The notes beneath the pieces were generated by a model. The model had not been told where the DNA came from, did no database searches, and was given only the letters and a program-made list of their open reading frames with translations. Positions 27,983-35,152 of a stretch of 64,000 nt of DNA are shown piece by piece; position 1 is the first letter of the stretch; every line of letters starts with the position of its first letter. Location of the stretch: the NCBI RefSeq assembly GCF_028583425.1, contig NC_072796.1, positions 123,849,464-123,913,463 of the forward strand. The letters run 5' to 3'. Position numbers and translations under genes: made by a program. The stretch is from Eublepharis macularius. Lineage: Eukaryota; Chordata; Lepidosauria; Squamata; Eublepharidae.

Positions 27983-28036
27983 ACTCACTCACTCACTCAC
28001 TCACTCACTCACACACACACACACACACACACACAC
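27902..28036. repeat. compound microsatellite (CT)n(CTCA)n(CA)n
   Basis: About 75 bp of CT, then CTCA/ACTC tetramers, then CA. Reading frames across it are artefacts. Confidence 0.97.
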
Positions 28037-28320
28037 CCACGCGCTCCTGGAGGATTTTTGAGAAAGAGAGAGAGAGAGAAGGCAGGAAGGAGGGATCACT
28101 GAGGGAGCACCAAACAAAATGAAAAAGTCTTCACCTGCTGGCAGAAGATGGCAACAGAAGGGGACAGAGAATTCTCCCTGCGGAGAGAATTCCAGAGGTT
28201 TGGTGCCATGCCTAAGAAGGCCCTTTCCTGCATAAGCCCCCCCGCTTCAGTTGAGGGCACCTGAAGCAGGTCCTCAGAAGATGACCATAGTGGTCGGGTA
28301 GGTTTATAAGGAAGTAGGTG

Positions 28321-28520
28321 TTCATCTTCGTTCTTCTGTGCCTCCACACATGGGGGACTGCGCAGGCGCAGGCCAGCCGCCGGAGAATTTTCTAGAGCTT
28401 CCATGGCTCCGAAGGGGCCGTTTGTCGCGCGCCTCAGCGACCGTCTTCCCGCCCAAACGGTCACGTGATCCTACAGCGACCAACGGCCCCTTCCCCCAGT
28501 TCTCTTCTTGCCGCCGCTTG
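28321..28520 (+). repeat. DIRS left inverted terminal repeat
   Basis: Pairs with 34195-34392 in inverted orientation with few mismatches. Contains GGTCACGTGATC (E-box core at 28462-28467). Transcription of DIRS elements generally starts in this repeat. Confidence 0.9.
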
Positions 28521-28702
28521 GAGAGAACGTGAGCTTCGTTGCTCTGTGCTTTTGTGCTTCGTGCTTACTCTAACTGATTGCTTGACTTTTGACTTCGGAC
28601 TTCGTGACCTCGACTATTCTTTGGATCTCGCTTTGGACTTTGACGTGGACTCGGTAATTTGACTCGGACTGTTTTTGACCCTTCTTTCGCGTGCCCCTGA
28701 AG

Positions 28703-30862
28703 ATGGCCTCTATGGCTCTCTTCAAGCATTGCCTAAAATGCCACACTAAAATGGCCAAATCCGATGGCCATGATTTGTGCCTTTTTTGCTTGGGGGAGAC
28801 CCACAATGTCTCGGCCTGTAGGATCTGCCAGGGTTTCACCAGCAAGGCCCGGCAGGATCGCAAGGCCCGGCTAAATTCCTCGCTGTGGCAGAAGGTCATG
28901 TCGGAGGGAACCCCGTTACGTCCGTCCAAGGCCGGCCCTAGCCCCTCTGCCGAACGGCAATCAAGAGCTGGCTCAGTGGCCTCCGCGAGGTCGGGGTCGA
29001 AACCGCTGCCCCCGAGTGCCTCGGCGTCGAGAGCGGCCTCTCCAGCGCAGGGACCGGTGCGGCCGCCCCGTAGCGCGTCATCTACCAGGTCGGATCCGAG
29101 ACCAGCTTCGGAACCGAGGGTCCTGGTACCGAGTCTCCGGTCGGAACCGACAACCGGTTCGATCCCGATCAAGGCGAAGAGGTCGAAGCCGAGGTCCCCT
29201 TCGAAGGCGAGGAGCGCGTCGGTTCCCAGGTCTTCTTCGGAACCAGCGAAGAAGAAGAAGAAGACCAAGCATCACCGGTCGCCGCGTCCCGCTCCTCAGG
29301 AGGAGGTCATCGTGCTTCCTCACACGCCTTCCCCTCATCTGGGCTCCCCGGAGCCAGAAGACATCTCCGTGCCGGTGCCGGATCCGATGGCCTTCGAGAC
29401 GGTGCCCGCAGAATTCTCTTCGGGACCGGAGCCGAGCCCGCGCCATCGGAGCCGACCATCGCTTCCCCTTCGGTCGCCGAGGCTGGAACCGAGCCCGTCC
29501 CCTCGTCGGAGCCGTCCGTCGCCTGCCCGTCCGTCTCCACCTCCGGTCGGTCGTGAGCGGCATGGTTCCGGGGACAGTGTCCGATCTGTCCGGTCCGCTG
29601 CGTCCCGGCATCGACAGGCTTCCTACCTCCCCTCTCCATACCGTTGCCAATGGGAGGGGGCACCTGCGGGCTTCTCCGTGTCGGAACCGAGGCCTTCGAC
29701 ATCGAGGTCGGCGTGGGCTCCCCCTCCGCTCCAGGTTCCGGAATCCCAGCTCGGTTCCGATGAGGAGGAAGTGGGGAGCTTTGGCGGCTACCAGTCGGAG
29801 TCCTGGTCCGAACCATCGCCGGCTGAGGAGCTAGTGCCATCGGCGGACTCGCCATTCGAGGACCTCCGCATCTACGCCGACCAGATGGCTAGGATGGCCA
29901 AGGCTCTCGAGATGGACATCTCTTCGGCAGTCCCCCAGACCAAGGACAAGCTCCTCAAACGTATTTACGGGGACAATCCGGCGTACGTTGGCTTCCCCAT
30001 GCTCGAGGGTATTGAGGAGATTGTGGAGAAGGTGTGGCAGGTGCCCTGTGATCAACCTCCAACATCCAAGCGCATCGAGCAGCTTTACAAGATCAAGCAG
30101 GGCACCTGGCCGGCGTTGGTGAAGCACCCTCCACCTTCCTCCTTGGTCACAGAGGAGTTCAACCCCCGACGATCGGGTCACTCCTCGGTGCCTGCCGATA
30201 AGGAGGGCAAGAAGCTGGATGCCATGGGCAGGCGCCAGTACATTGTCTCTTCACTGGGTCTGAGGATTGCCAACTACCAGACCATCATGGCAGGGTACCA
30301 ACTGTACCTCTGGGAGAAGTTGGCATCCTATACCCGGGACCTCCCTCCTGAGCAGAAGGCTGTGGTGTCCCTGCTGCAGACAGAGGCTGTGAGGCTGTCT
30401 AAGCAGCAGATGAACGCTGGGAGCCACGCTGCTGACACTGCTGCTAGAGGGATGGCGTCGGCGGTGGTCCTCAGGCGCCACTCTTGGTTGCGGTCGACGG
30501 CTCTGTCCCAAGAGGTGCGTTCCAGGGTGGAGAGCATGCCCTTTGAAGGGGACTCGCTGTTCTCCAAGTCCACCGACGAGACCCTGAAAAAGAAAAAAGA
30601 GGACAGGCAGACGGCGCGGTCTTTGGGTCTGGCTCCAGCGGACAAGCCCTCCTCCAGGTCACGGTACGCTCCCCGGTCTGGCCCTTACCATTACCAGGGC
30701 AGATACCAGCAACAGCGGCCGGGCTACCAGCAGTATCCTGCCTACCAGCAGCGGCCTTACCCTCCCGCACAACAGCAGAGGAGGCGTCGGCCCTTCAAGC
30801 CTCGTCAGGCACAGCAACCGGCCCAGCAGAAAGATCAGCAGGGTGCCGGGAGGCAGTACTGA
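28703..30862 (+). CDS. DIRS ORF1, Gag-like protein
   Basis: Predicted 719 residues from ATG at 28703 (an in-frame GTG lies 12 bp upstream). The N-terminus has a cysteine cluster, CLKCHTKMAKSDGHDLC then CLGETHNVSACRIC, reminiscent of a zinc ribbon. A long Ser/Arg/Pro-rich low-complexity region follows (about residues 80-350), then a predicted helical part (VPQTKDKLLKRIYGDNPAYV onward), and a Q/Y/R-rich tail ending GAGRQY. DIRS ORF1 proteins are thought to package the RNA; no enzymatic motif is seen. The frame ends at TGA 30860-30862, immediately followed by CGG, and continues open in the same register into ORF2. Confidence 0.85.
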   Translation: MASMALFKHCLKCHTKMAKSDGHDLCLFCLGETHNVSACRICQGFTSKARQDRKARLNSSLWQKVMSEGTPLRPSKAGPSPSAERQSRAGSVASARSGSKPLPPSASASRAASPAQGPVRPPRSASSTRSDPRPASEPRVLVPSLRSEPTTGSIPIKAKRSKPRSPSKARSASVPRSSSEPAKKKKKTKHHRSPRPAPQEEVIVLPHTPSPHLGSPEPEDISVPVPDPMAFETVPAEFSSGPEPSPRHRSRPSLPLRSPRLEPSPSPRRSRPSPARPSPPPVGRERHGSGDSVRSVRSAASRHRQASYLPSPYRCQWEGAPAGFSVSEPRPSTSRSAWAPPPLQVPESQLGSDEEEVGSFGGYQSESWSEPSPAEELVPSADSPFEDLRIYADQMARMAKALEMDISSAVPQTKDKLLKRIYGDNPAYVGFPMLEGIEEIVEKVWQVPCDQPPTSKRIEQLYKIKQGTWPALVKHPPPSSLVTEEFNPRRSGHSSVPADKEGKKLDAMGRRQYIVSSLGLRIANYQTIMAGYQLYLWEKLASYTRDLPPEQKAVVSLLQTEAVRLSKQQMNAGSHAADTAARGMASAVVLRRHSWLRSTALSQEVRSRVESMPFEGDSLFSKSTDETLKKKKEDRQTARSLGLAPADKPSSRSRYAPRSGPYHYQGRYQQQRPGYQQYPAYQQRPYPPAQQQRRRRPFKPRQAQQPAQQKDQQGAGRQY

Positions 30863-32755
30863 CGGGTCGCGCCAGCCGTATCCCCGAACTTTTCGGACAG
30901 ACTTAGTCCACTCCTCTCTGAGTGGGAGTCAATAACATCTGACTCATGGGTCTTAACTATTGTTGAACTGGGATACGGGCTGGAGTTTGTTGAGCTGCCT
31001 AGATGCGGTTCGCCCCTGACAGCTGTCAATAACACTATGGCCGAGCTGGATGCGGAGATCGTGTTGCTCTTGGCCAAGGGTGCTGTGGAAGAATTGCCCT
31101 ATGAGGACTCTGTAAAGGGATTCTTCTCTAGATTCTTCCTGGTCCCTAAGAAGGATGGGGGCTTACGTCCCATCTTAGATCTGAGGGGCCTTAATGCCTT
31201 CCTCAAGGTGACCAAATTCAAAATGGTAACGTTGGCGGCTGTGATCGCCTTGCTGAAACAGGGAGATTGGTTTGCGGTTCTTGACTTAAAAGACGCATAC
31301 TTTCACGTGGGGATACGGAAGGAGCACAGGAAATACCTGAGCTTTGTTTACCGGCAAAGGGTTTTCCGGTATAAGGTGCTCCCCTTTGGCCTTTCCACTG
31401 CCCCACGAGTGTTCACAAAATGTGTGGCCCCTGTGGTTTCCTTCCTACGGGAAGAAGGCTGTACCATCTTTCCGTACCTCGATGACTGGCTCATCGTGGC
31501 TGAATCGGAGTCTAGGCTGGTGCAAGACATTGGCTTGGTACTTAGCACTTGCCAACGCCTGGGGCTCCTGGTGAACTTTGAAAAGTCCAAACTGGTGCCC
31601 AGCTGCAAGGTGTCCTACATTGGTGCACTGTTAGACTCTGTGGAGGGTAAGGCCCTGCTCCCCTTGGAGAGGGCTCGGTCCCTAAGGGGTCTAGTGTCCA
31701 TGTTTAAAAGGAACCGATTCCAGTCTGTGCGCACTATCCAGTGCTTACTAGGGCATATGGCAGCGGCCACCTCTGTGGTGCCTTTTGCTAGGCTGCGTAT
31801 GCGCCCGCTCCAGAACTGGTTTGTGCGGAGGTACGATGCTCTGCTGCACCCTCCGTCCCTCAAATTCTCTATCCCGAGGGTCATCCTCTCCTCCTTGGAC
31901 TGGTGGCTGTCTGATGACAACTTGTTTAAGGGAATCCCCTTTGGGTATCAACACCATGACATCACGGTTACCACTGATGCCTCTCTGTTGGGATGGGGGG
32001 CTTACTGTGGTGATGTGTCTGTGCAGGATGTCTGGTCTGACAGGGAAAAGACCCTCCATATCAATGTGCTTGAACTAAGGGCCATTCGTTTCGCACTTGT
32101 GTCTCTTACAGCACTACTGAGAGATCGTCAGGTCTTGGTGCAGACGGACAACACGACTGCCATGTACTACGTTAATCAGCAGGGGGGCACAGTGTCCATG
32201 GCCCTGTGCCGGGAAGCCACACTCACTTGGCAGTGGGCTATCAAGAACGGCGTGTCGCTCCGTGCTATACACGTGGCTGGGTCAGACAATGCCCGGGCAG
32301 ATGCCCTCAGCAGGGTCCCTTTGCTGGACCACGAGTGGGAACTGAACGTAGAGTACGTTGGGCCGATCTTCCAGATGTGGGGTCATCCAGTGATAGACGT
32401 GTTCGCCACTGCGGCGACCACCAAGGCCCACACGTTCTGTTCCAGGGCAGGAAGCGACCCCCTCTCTATTGGGGATGCCTTCCAGTTTACGTGGACGCAG
32501 GGCTTGCACTACATGTTTCCTCCGTTCCCCTTGATTCCCAGGGTCCTGTGCAAGATAGAGGAGGACGGGACGGACTGCATCCTGGTGGCCCCCTTCTGGC
32601 CACGGCAGGTTTGGTTCCCGAAGCTCCTGCGAATGTCCCAACGGACATATGTGAGTCTGCCCCCTCAGCAAGACCTTCTCCTAAACGGGAGCCTAGTCCA
32701 CCACGATCCCAGGAAGCTGCACCTAACGGCGTGGCGGATCGTTCCTCCCCGATAG
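30863..32755 (+). CDS. DIRS ORF2, reverse transcriptase-RNase H
   Basis: Open in the same frame as ORF1 from the codon after its TGA; the first ATG is 31037 (572 residues). The 58 codons before that ATG look coding (SDRLSPLLSEWESITSDSWV, then ELGYGLEFVELP). RT motifs, numbered from the ATG: PKKDGGLRPILDLRGLN, VLDLKDAYFHV, LPFGLSTAPRVFTK and the catalytic YLDD at residues 147-150. RNase H follows with TTDASLLGWGA, INVLELRAI, QTDNTTAMYY and a distal AGSDNARADALSR. The C-terminal 130 residues (VIDVFAT, HYMFPPFPLIPRVL, VAPFWPRQVWFPKLL) are the usual DIRS extension; I see no DPPY-type methyltransferase motif. All catalytic acidic residues are present. It overlaps ORF3 by 550 bp. Confidence 0.92.
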   Translation, partial: RVAPAVSPNFSDRLSPLLSEWESITSDSWVLTIVELGYGLEFVELPRCGSPLTAVNNTMAELDAEIVLLLAKGAVEELPYEDSVKGFFSRFFLVPKKDGGLRPILDLRGLNAFLKVTKFKMVTLAAVIALLKQGDWFAVLDLKDAYFHVGIRKEHRKYLSFVYRQRVFRYKVLPFGLSTAPRVFTKCVAPVVSFLREEGCTIFPYLDDWLIVAESESRLVQDIGLVLSTCQRLGLLVNFEKSKLVPSCKVSYIGALLDSVEGKALLPLERARSLRGLVSMFKRNRFQSVRTIQCLLGHMAAATSVVPFARLRMRPLQNWFVRRYDALLHPPSLKFSIPRVILSSLDWWLSDDNLFKGIPFGYQHHDITVTTDASLLGWGAYCGDVSVQDVWSDREKTLHINVLELRAIRFALVSLTALLRDRQVLVQTDNTTAMYYVNQQGGTVSMALCREATLTWQWAIKNGVSLRAIHVAGSDNARADALSRVPLLDHEWELNVEYVGPIFQMWGHPVIDVFATAATTKAHTFCSRAGSDPLSIGDAFQFTWTQGLHYMFPPFPLIPRVLCKIEEDGTDCILVAPFWPRQVWFPKLLRMSQRTYVSLPPQQDLLLNGSLVHHDPRKLHLTAWRIVPPR

Positions 32756-33771
32756 GCTTTACTGACGAGGTACAGAGGGTCCTCCTGAATGCTCGTCGGC
32801 CATCCACTAGGCGCGCTTATGCGGCCAAGTGGCGCAGGTTTGAGCTCTGGGCACTTGCCAGAGGAGTGGTGCCTGACAGCAGTCCCTTGGGGGTTGTATT
32901 CGAGTATTTGTGCCACTTGCGTGGCCTGGGCTTGAAGGTGTCCTCCCTCAAGGTACACTTGGCAGCGATATCAGCTGCTCACGCCCGAGTTGAGGGTGCT
33001 ACGGTGTTTTCTCACCCACAATCCCGCCAGTTCCTTAAGGGCATGTACAATCTTTACCCACCTGTGTCGGCGCCAGTGCCTCAGTGGTCACTGTCTTTGG
33101 TGCTCTCACGTCTCATGTTGCCTCCATTTGAACCTATGGCTACATGCCCCTTGGATATGCTATCCTACAAGGTAGCATTCTTGGTGGCCGTCACATCGGC
33201 CAGGAGGGTCAGTGAGCTGTCTGCACTGCGGTCTGACCCTCCTTTTCTTGTGTTTCATCCCAACAAGGTGGTCCTGCGTCCCTGCCTCGGGTTCCTGCCC
33301 AAGGTGGTGTCCGCCTTCCACCTCTCGCAGGATATCTCACTGCCTGCATTTTTTCCTCAACCTTCCTCTAAGGGGGAAAAGGCCCTTCATTCCCTAGACT
33401 TGAAGAGGGCCCTAGCCTATTACCTGGATAGGACGAAGGAATTCCGCTCCTGTCCTCACCTGTTTGTATGTTTTGGGGCCAAGGACAAGGGTAACAGGGC
33501 TTCCTCACAGACCCTGTCTAGGTGGATTGTGACGGCCATTAGCAAGGCCTATTCGCTGGCAGGGGTGGCTTGCCCGCTTCATGTCAGAGCCCACTCCACG
33601 CGGTCCCAAGCATCCTCTTCGGCACTCCTCAGGGGGGTGCCCCTGGTTAACATTTGTAAAGCCGCCACATGGTCCTCTGCAGACACCTTTGTCAGGCATT
33701 ACGCCGTTGATGTCAATGCTGAGCAGGATGCATCTGTGGCCAAGGCTGTCTTACACTCCCTTTTTTCCTGA
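32206..33771 (+). CDS. DIRS ORF3, tyrosine recombinase
   Basis: Open frame of 521 codons in the -1 register relative to ORF2. The recombinase proper begins about residue 175 (FTDEVQRVLLNARRPSTRRA, the SAM-like N-terminal domain). Catalytic residues, numbered from 32206: R334 in SARRVSEL, H463 and R466 in HSTRS, W489 in the second-histidine position, and the nucleophile Y499 in RHYAVD. The set is complete. The enzyme would join the circular DNA intermediate to the genome without target duplication. The frame opens at a GTG, and its first ATG lies inside the core domain (GMYNLYPPV), so the start of the real protein is unresolved. It ends in TGA at 33769-33771. Confidence 0.9.
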   Translation: MPGSHTHLAVGYQERRVAPCYTRGWVRQCPGRCPQQGPFAGPRVGTERRVRWADLPDVGSSSDRRVRHCGDHQGPHVLFQGRKRPPLYWGCLPVYVDAGLALHVSSVPLDSQGPVQDRGGRDGLHPGGPLLATAGLVPEAPANVPTDICESAPSARPSPKREPSPPRSQEAAPNGVADRSSPIGFTDEVQRVLLNARRPSTRRAYAAKWRRFELWALARGVVPDSSPLGVVFEYLCHLRGLGLKVSSLKVHLAAISAAHARVEGATVFSHPQSRQFLKGMYNLYPPVSAPVPQWSLSLVLSRLMLPPFEPMATCPLDMLSYKVAFLVAVTSARRVSELSALRSDPPFLVFHPNKVVLRPCLGFLPKVVSAFHLSQDISLPAFFPQPSSKGEKALHSLDLKRALAYYLDRTKEFRSCPHLFVCFGAKDKGNRASSQTLSRWIVTAISKAYSLAGVACPLHVRAHSTRSQASSSALLRGVPLVNICKAATWSSADTFVRHYAVDVNAEQDASVAKAVLHSLFS

Positions 33772-33946
33772 GGGAGTTTTGGAATGACTTTCTTGGCGTA
33801 CCTGCTGGGTACCCTTGAGTGAAAGTGTGTATATATGTACCTGGGGGTGTGTATATATGTAAATATTGAGTATTTATGTGTCCTTACACAGTTTTTTTAC
33901 ATAGATGTATATATGCATATCTATTTATTGTTGTTCTTGTTTGTTC

Positions 33947-33952
33947 AATAAA
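33947..33952 (+). terminator. DIRS polyadenylation signal
   Basis: AATAAA, 176 bp after the ORF3 stop and before the internal complementary region. As it is in the sense orientation it could also truncate host transcripts within intron 3. Confidence 0.55.
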
Positions 33953-34004
33953 ATTGTGTTGGACTTCACCCCCGCCTTCCTTATTGTGTGAAGCTTGGTA
34001 CACT

Positions 34005-34095
34005 CCCATGTGTGGAGGCACAGAAGAACGAAGATGAAAACAGGGTTAACATACCTGTAACTTATGTTCATCGAGTTCTTCTGTGCTGACACACA
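34005..34095 (+). repeat. DIRS internal complementary region
   Basis: Positions 34005-34038 are the exact complement of the left end (28321-28354). Positions 34039-34095 are the exact complement of the right end (34364-34420). The two halves abut with no spacer. In the DIRS model this region templates joining of the two cDNA ends into a circle. Confidence 0.93.
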
Positions 34096-34194
34096 ACCCT
34101 CCCTCCTACCCCGCTGTGAACTCCAATGCACAATACTGTGATGGCTGTAACGGATATTGGTGTTTTTAAGGTGTTATGGCTGAAGTGTGTTGGT

Positions 34195-34420
34195 CAAGCG
34201 GCGGCAAAGGAGAACTGAGGGAAGGGGCCGTTGGTCGCTGTAGGATCACGTGACCGTTTGGGCGGGAAGACGGTCGCTGAGGCGCGCGACAAACGGCCCC
34301 TTCGGAGCCATGGAAGCTCTAGAAAATTCTCCGGCGGCTGGCCTGCGCCTGCGCAGTCCCCCATGTGTGTCAGCACAGAAGAACTCGATGAACATAAGTT
34401 ACAGGTATGTTAACCCTGTT
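34195..34420 (+). repeat. DIRS right inverted terminal repeat and terminal extension
   Basis: 34195-34392 complements the left repeat. The last 28 bp (34393-34420) have no counterpart at the left end but are matched in the internal complementary region. Confidence 0.88.
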
Positions 34421-35152
34421 ATCCTTCAGGTATGTTGGTCCCAAACCATACAGTGTTGGAACCAAAATCAGGGTAGATGCCTCCAGTTCAATGCTTTCTT
34501 TATACCTAGATGGGAAAAGCTTCATGAGTACACAGCTTGATCCTAAGAAGGCCCATTGATTTCAGTGGAATTTATTTCCCAATAAATAGGCTTTGGATTG
34601 CATTGATGTGGGTCTAGGCATACCATATTTATTTTACTTAGAGCACCTTCCACCCTTACTGGTTATCTCCCTCGTGGCTTCTCACAGCTTCCTTGGTACT
34701 GGGCTACGTTTCTGTTCACATGCTGCCCGCTACGGATGGACTGGGAAGGAAAAATGGCCGTGGGAAAGGGCCCCACCTGCTGGCTCTGCCCCCCAAAGGA
34801 GGAAAGGAGGAAGAAGCAGCCTGCCTACCCAACCATGTGGGTGCTGTCTCCTCTGGGCTTATGGGGGCTGCGGTGGACCCGGTATCCCCTGAGGCAGGCT
34901 GGGTGCTGCCTTTCTGCCCCTGCGCTGTCCCAGACAGGTTGGGGGAAGCTCTAATGGCTAATCCACCCTTGAACCCACAAACTAGATTTAATGGGCCTAA
35001 CCACACATCTGTCTTTTCCACGTCCGAAGTAGATGGTGGGTGCATGTCTCTTTTAACCAAAAAAGGAGAGTGCAGGTGATGGGAGATTAAGGTCTGGTTC
35101 CCACATGGAAAAGAATGGACTGGATGAGGCTTTAGGTGACAGAATGGACTAC

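Follow-up and report, generated by a model that had tools for sequence, protein, structure and literature searches.

The expression of reverse transcriptase (RT) relative to Gag, which the DIRS literature found leaves unaddressed as far as its accessible text goes, is the question raised by a locus of Eublepharis macularius (assembly GCF_028583425.1, contig NC_072796.1, positions 123,849,464 to 123,913,463 of the forward strand). The window, i.e. this whole stretch of 64,000 nucleotides, carries a DIRS-type retrotransposon in which a Gag-like open reading frame (ORF) ends at a UGA codon and the RT frame continues directly behind it in the same register. The element most probably produces its RT as a Gag-Pol fusion through programmed readthrough of this UGA, with a signal of the kind called type II. 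This reading is carried by the frame continuity, by the retention of UGA-C over deep lineages, by selection on the codons that precede the first ATG of the RT frame, and by silent variation that is suppressed next to the stop in two clades. The features at the junction are the following.

30860..30862, + strand: UGA stop, the proposed readthrough site, conserved in family copies and across families
30863..30865, + strand: CGG codon adjacent to the stop on its 3' side, type II context, in 30 of 31 copies
28703..30862, + strand: ORF1, Gag-like, ending in UGA (ORF list, sub-threshold LAP2alpha match, ratio of non-synonymous to synonymous change, dN/dS)
30863..32755, + strand: ORF2, reverse transcriptase frame (RVT_1, E 9.8e-25)

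Upstream of the TGA the Gag frame is free of stops back to 28679, with the first ATG used at 28703, and the RT frame is open from 30863 to 32755 with no gap after the TGA. The coordinates and frames thus agree with the original prediction, in which ORF1 ended at this TGA and the RT frame continued in register from CGG. Copies of the family were collected with a 601-base query across the junction, which gave 1242 candidates (40 scored, 30 fetched). At the junction 31 of 38 loci could be aligned; the other seven, L002-L008, were random matches of a short pattern. The aligned set includes the window itself (L009) and one locus, L001, obtained from a TGA-containing pattern. Every one of the 31 aligned copies had UGA (29 of 29 if these two are left aside), followed by CGG in 30 and by TGG in one, and CGA was found in none of them. 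A pattern for the window family that leaves the stop codon and the next base open had 762 matches in the genome; among the 100 listed, 98 carried TGA, the other two carried TGG and CGG, and again none carried CGA. The codon after TGA in those 98 was CGG in 92, TGG in five and AGG in one. All pattern tallies were counted by eye, and the patterns select copies with intact flanks. Since UGA occurs in nearly all family copies and CGA was unseen, the stop is not a product of decay within one copy. Alignment of the family copies at this codon therefore favours readthrough.

The depth of this arrangement was assessed through the RT motif. A degenerate YLDDWL pattern had 2267 matches in the genome and its reversed control none; a YLDDIL pattern had 664, from which no loci were obtained. 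The 54 loci gathered from the RT motif were chosen non-randomly: the 30 first listed, the next 20 matches whose motif codons differ from those of the window, and 4 further ones. In 39 loci (38 and L089) the RT frame is open as far back as the junction; of the 38, 31 have a Gag frame without interruption up to the edge of the fragment, and 7 have one that is broken further up. The junction was read by alignment in 13 broken copies and was not found in L039 and L086. One locus, L087, passed the distance filter through an indel and was dropped from the lineage comparison; its junction reads TGA-CTA, and it is still among the 40 sequences of the context tally.

Across families the stop was UGA in 51 of 52 readable junctions and UGG in the remaining one (L090), while the base after it was C in 46, A in five and T in one. 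The tree contains six deep DIRS lineages whose RT proteins are 48-60% identical to one another. Between these lineages the third bases at shared four-fold codons agree in 21-54% of cases, mostly 25-40%, which is near chance (examples of agreement with the window are 8/33, 9/36 and 6/29). The Gag-UGA-Pol junction and a next codon starting with C were nevertheless found in all six, the encoded residue varying between Arg, Leu and Gln: the window family has CGG, three other lineages have CUA, and CAA, CUG and CAG occur in further ones. Because four-fold sites are near chance between lineages, a functionless stop would be expected to have changed by now, as would the base after it. Judged by these counts, the sharing of the junction stop by nearly all copies and by deeply diverged families is more than chance. 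The claim can accordingly be extended beyond the single element, to a Gag-Pol junction with UGA-C that is conserved across six DIRS lineages within this genome.

Patterns made for other families gave similar tallies. TGA was present in 92 of the 100 listed matches of the second family (223 matches in total; the other codons listed were AGG, ACC, TAA, CAT, CGA twice, CAG and AGT), in 97 of the 100 listed of the third (337 matches; the others being GGC, AGT and TGT) and in 27 of 27 matches of the fourth. These three patterns fix the next codon, and only that of the window family informs on the next base. As an observation apart, 37 of the 40 sequences have UUC or UAC as the last Gag codon (30857-30859 in the window), the others having AUC, UUU or GCC; GCC belongs to L087 and is an indel artefact.

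Type II readthrough is defined by a UGA with CGG or CUA as the next codon, in most cases accompanied by a stem-loop that starts some 8 nt on the 3' side (PMC3542737). Both contexts occur here, CGG in the window family and CUA in three lineages, and the original description of UGA-CGG as a tobravirus-type context matches the published signal.

The part of the RT frame that precedes any ATG offers a further line of evidence.

30863..31036, + strand: 58 codons from the stop to the first in-frame ATG, under purifying selection, with residues common to lineages

The first in-frame ATG of the window is codon 59, at 31037. Compared with 30 non-self copies, the 58 codons before it show 13 non-synonymous and 26 synonymous non-CpG changes, a dN/dS of about 0.22, as against about 0.15 in the 3' part of Gag and about 0.17 in RT; this is a rough measure based on changes outside CpG only. 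Among 14 representatives, residues such as RL, W and SD.WV of this stretch are kept across lineages, and the first in-frame ATG stands at codon 8, 47, 50, 59, 66, 76 or 120. In three copies from two lineages (L063, L081 and L070) it stands at codon 120, within the stretch covered by RVT_1, a match that begins at residue 94 of ORF2 in the window. By these measures the 58 codons are under purifying selection and behave as coding, as had been supposed from the window alone. Initiation of RT at an AUG was rejected, the position of the ATG not being conserved among the representatives. If RT is indeed made through the stop, RT proteins annotated from the first ATG miss a conserved N-terminal stretch.

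Silent variation was scanned along the elements of several clades.

30926..30970, + strand: codons +22 to +36, with the lowest silent variation in the window clade; a predicted hairpin, 30926-30945, lies inside

In the window clade the minimum of 876 windows fell at codons +22 to +36, and in the CAA clade the minimum of 867 windows fell at codons -1 to +14, a stretch that straddles the stop. For the two CUA clades, 1.9% and 6.6% of windows were as low as the lowest ones near the stop. It may be added that the nucleotides of 30926-30970, inside the predicted stem loop, are near-invariant, silent sites included, in seven window-clade members, some of which lack the stem.

RNA folding predicted an extended stem on the 3' side of the stop.

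30872..30884, + strand: 5' arm of the predicted extended stem, beginning 9 nt after UGA
30970..30983, + strand: 3' arm of the predicted extended stem

The stem of the window comprises 13 bp, with a z-score of -3.07 for 30868-31000 (2 of 200 shuffles being as good) and of -2.86 for 30860-31005. Taken alone, it is only suggestive. Nineteen representatives were folded, each at four lengths; the association of structure with stop context was a post hoc observation. Over 133 nt, z ranged from -2.2 to -4.7 in five window-clade members with CGG or CAG, was -3.1 in one CUG copy and ranged from -0.56 to 1.32 in six CUA members, one of which (L076) reaches -1.95 over 40 nt. Four CAA members gave -2.6 to -5.0 over 40 nt, with a compact hairpin. 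The predicted stem is kept in 5 of the 8 window-clade representatives folded. The predicted 3' structure is bound to lineage, accompanying CGG and CAA contexts and not CUA, with some members devoid of it. For UGA-CUAG readthrough, 12 nt downstream have been reported to be sufficient (PMC4132726), and the CUA lineages without predicted structure fit this.

According to the proposed mechanism, most ribosomes would terminate at the UGA and release Gag as the main product, and a minority would decode the UGA with a near-cognate tRNA and proceed to Gag-Pol. Decoding would be favoured by the adjacent codon starting with C, which is CGG in the window and CUA, CAA, CUG or CAG elsewhere; in the window lineage, RNA structure from 9 nt downstream would probably favour readthrough as well. 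The leakiness of the stop, its rate, the amino acid inserted and the stimulation by predicted structures are matters that we infer from sequence. A broader proposal, which could equally well turn out right or wrong, is that UGA-C readthrough is the ancestral and general Gag-Pol route of such DIRS elements, with UGA-CUA alone being traded for a weaker C-starting codon (CGG, CAA, CUG) combined with a 3' structure evolved within the lineage. A genome with six lineages and copies by the hundred provides a natural comparison of stop context and RNA structure as possible substitutes for each other.

Several observations weigh against programmed readthrough of this kind. T or A follows UGA in 6 of the 98 window-family pattern matches listed with TGA, and a whole subclade (L041, L044, L056, L085 and L089) has UGA-AGG or UGA-AGA; the latter forms a natural test of the role of the next base. 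All of the lineages come from one genome. As regards structure, two shorter junction windows without the 3' arm gave z of -1.52 and -0.17, pairing as strong as that of the stem occurs at five other sites in the element, and 4 of 250 windows of the scan had a lower z than the junction. A universal 3' stem was not found among the representatives, and none was found in the CUA lineages; within the window clade, L041 and L056 (UGA-AGG) and L057 (UGA-CAG) lack the stem, with z of -0.27 to -1.59 over 133 nt. Covariation is weak in both the CAA hairpin and the window stem. The hairpin has one pair with both sides changed, as do 81 of 500 shuffles. Among the 13 pairs of the window stem, compared in six window-clade members with the three stem-less ones left out, nine are invariant, one changes from U-A to C-G (in L071), one changes to U-G and two are broken in one sequence each; the covariation term gives no help to the folding energy.

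The nearest retrotransposon case found is Tca2 of Candida albicans, which we take to be a long terminal repeat (LTR) element of the Ty1/copia type and not a DIRS element, and which likewise has Gag-UGA-Pol. Its gag-pol junction contains a minor promoter, and this junction alone gave no readthrough in yeast (PMC2194720). The latter result counts against readthrough here as well, and both results lend some weight to separate production of RT, by non-AUG or internal initiation after the stop, from a spliced RNA or from a promoter near the junction; that readthrough in the gecko element rests on sequence comparison works in the same direction. Separate production is nonetheless unlikely: it leaves unexplained both the retention of UGA, the next C and the frame over deep divergence and the fact that two clades have their minimum of silent variation next to the stop, and the variable position of the ATG also speaks against it. 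Still less probable, to the point of being very hard to credit, is a functionless stop shared by descent only. The lineages do belong to a single genome and have a common ancestor, but at the four-fold agreement given above neither the stop nor the base behind it would be expected to have stayed the same without selection, and the codon after the stop switches its residue while keeping C.

Two further explanations have next to no probability. The original prediction had set against readthrough the decay of a CGA codon (TAC CGA CGG) in one copy. CGA often changes to TGA through its CpG, and CGA does occur in another family, in two of the 100 matches listed; in the window family this alternative failed, being ruled out by UGA in every aligned copy and the lack of CGA there and among the matches listed. 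Redefinition of UGA as selenocysteine would suit the near-universal UGA of the readable junctions and was rejected, an Rfam search of 28300-34500 having given no selenocysteine insertion sequence (SECIS) family with E of 1 or less. Type II readthrough of the Gag-Pol stop is thus left as by far the most probable reading.

The rest of the element agrees with its assignment to DIRS.

28318..34423, + strand: DIRS-type retrotransposon, outer limits taken from terminal and internal repeats
28330..28504, + strand: left inverted terminal repeat, pairing with 34210-34384 (175 nt, 98% complementary)
34210..34384, + strand: right inverted terminal repeat, pairing with 28330-28504
34005..34095, + strand: internal complementary regions, pairing with the left end at 34005-34041 (97%) and with the right end at 34036-34095 (98%)
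32176..33771, + strand: ORF3, tyrosine-recombinase-like, with a sub-threshold Phage_integrase match; its frame is -1 with respect to that of ORF2

Repeat analysis found inverted terminal repeats and internal complementary regions of the DIRS1-like type. In Pfam searches the LAP2alpha match of ORF1 was below the cut-off. ORF2 matched RVT_1 with E 9.8e-25 and 87.9 bits (cut-off 29.6), the RT expected of a DIRS1-like element; this was its sole match at E 0.001, with none to RNase H or methyltransferase, no deeper search having been made. ORF3 matched Phage_integrase with E 5.4e-4 and 20.2 bits, below the cut-off of 27.1, and is located where the tyrosine recombinase (YR) ORF is expected. It overlaps RT at 32176-32755 in the -1 frame. 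Among 40 sequences the YR motif lay in the -1 frame in 25 and in the +1 frame in two, both with a broken RT frame; in the remaining 13 it was not found. The window has no ATG upstream of this motif in the YR frame, and no -1 slippery heptamer shared by position was found for the overlap in 16 representatives. A CA/GA simple-repeat tract (about 28000-28085) lies immediately 5' of the element. The sole Rfam match at gathering score within the window is a tRNA match (RF00005, 59502-59558, - strand, 42.3 bits), perhaps a tRNA-derived repeat.

For DIRS elements of vertebrates, ORF1 has been reported to contain a LAP2alpha domain and the RT ORF to overlap the YR ORF (PMC9210276, PMC3266345). The DIRS1-like elements of Anolis and Xenopus resemble the present one in a Gag with a LAP2alpha-like stretch, an RT ORF that possibly overlaps the YR ORF, inverted terminal repeats, internal complementary regions and a length of about 6 kb; they differ in being described as separate overlapping ORFs, no in-frame leaky stop being mentioned in the accessible parts of their descriptions (PMC3266345, PMC9210276). 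The accessible parts of PMC6681497 and PMC8547959 do not mention an in-frame DIRS stop either. The original prediction knew of no described Gag-stop-Pol strategy in DIRS; likewise, no report of a leaky Gag-Pol stop in these elements was found in the open literature, subscription journals lying mostly outside it and an earlier remark in the classic DIRS papers being possible.

Among viruses, the closest likeness is to the alphaviruses, tobraviruses and coltiviruses with type II signals, which share UGA-CGG/CUA, a 3' stem at about 8 nt (9 nt here, predicted) and an in-frame polymerase downstream (PMC3542737). Unlike them, the present element is a retrotransposon with the stop between Gag and RT, some of its lineages have CAA, CUG or CAG, and its readthrough is putative. 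Vertebrate cellular readthrough genes such as OPRL1 have the same UGA-CUA context as three of the DIRS lineages (PMC4132726); these, however, are cellular genes with short extensions and no Gag-Pol. The gammaretrovirus murine leukaemia virus (MLV) also has Gag and Pol in one frame with a single stop between them, giving Gag and Gag-Pol. Its type III signal consists of UAG followed by G and a compact pseudoknot (PMC3542737, PMC5009743). No such signal is present at the gecko junction, where the stop is UGA followed by C with a predicted stem or no structure, pseudoknots not having been searched for. The MLV-style strategy originally proposed thus stands as regards the one-frame layout and gives way, as regards the signal, to the type II kind of alphaviruses and tobraviruses. 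If the readthrough reading is true, tyrosine-recombinase elements gain a retrovirus-like Gag/Gag-Pol strategy that relies on a different signal.

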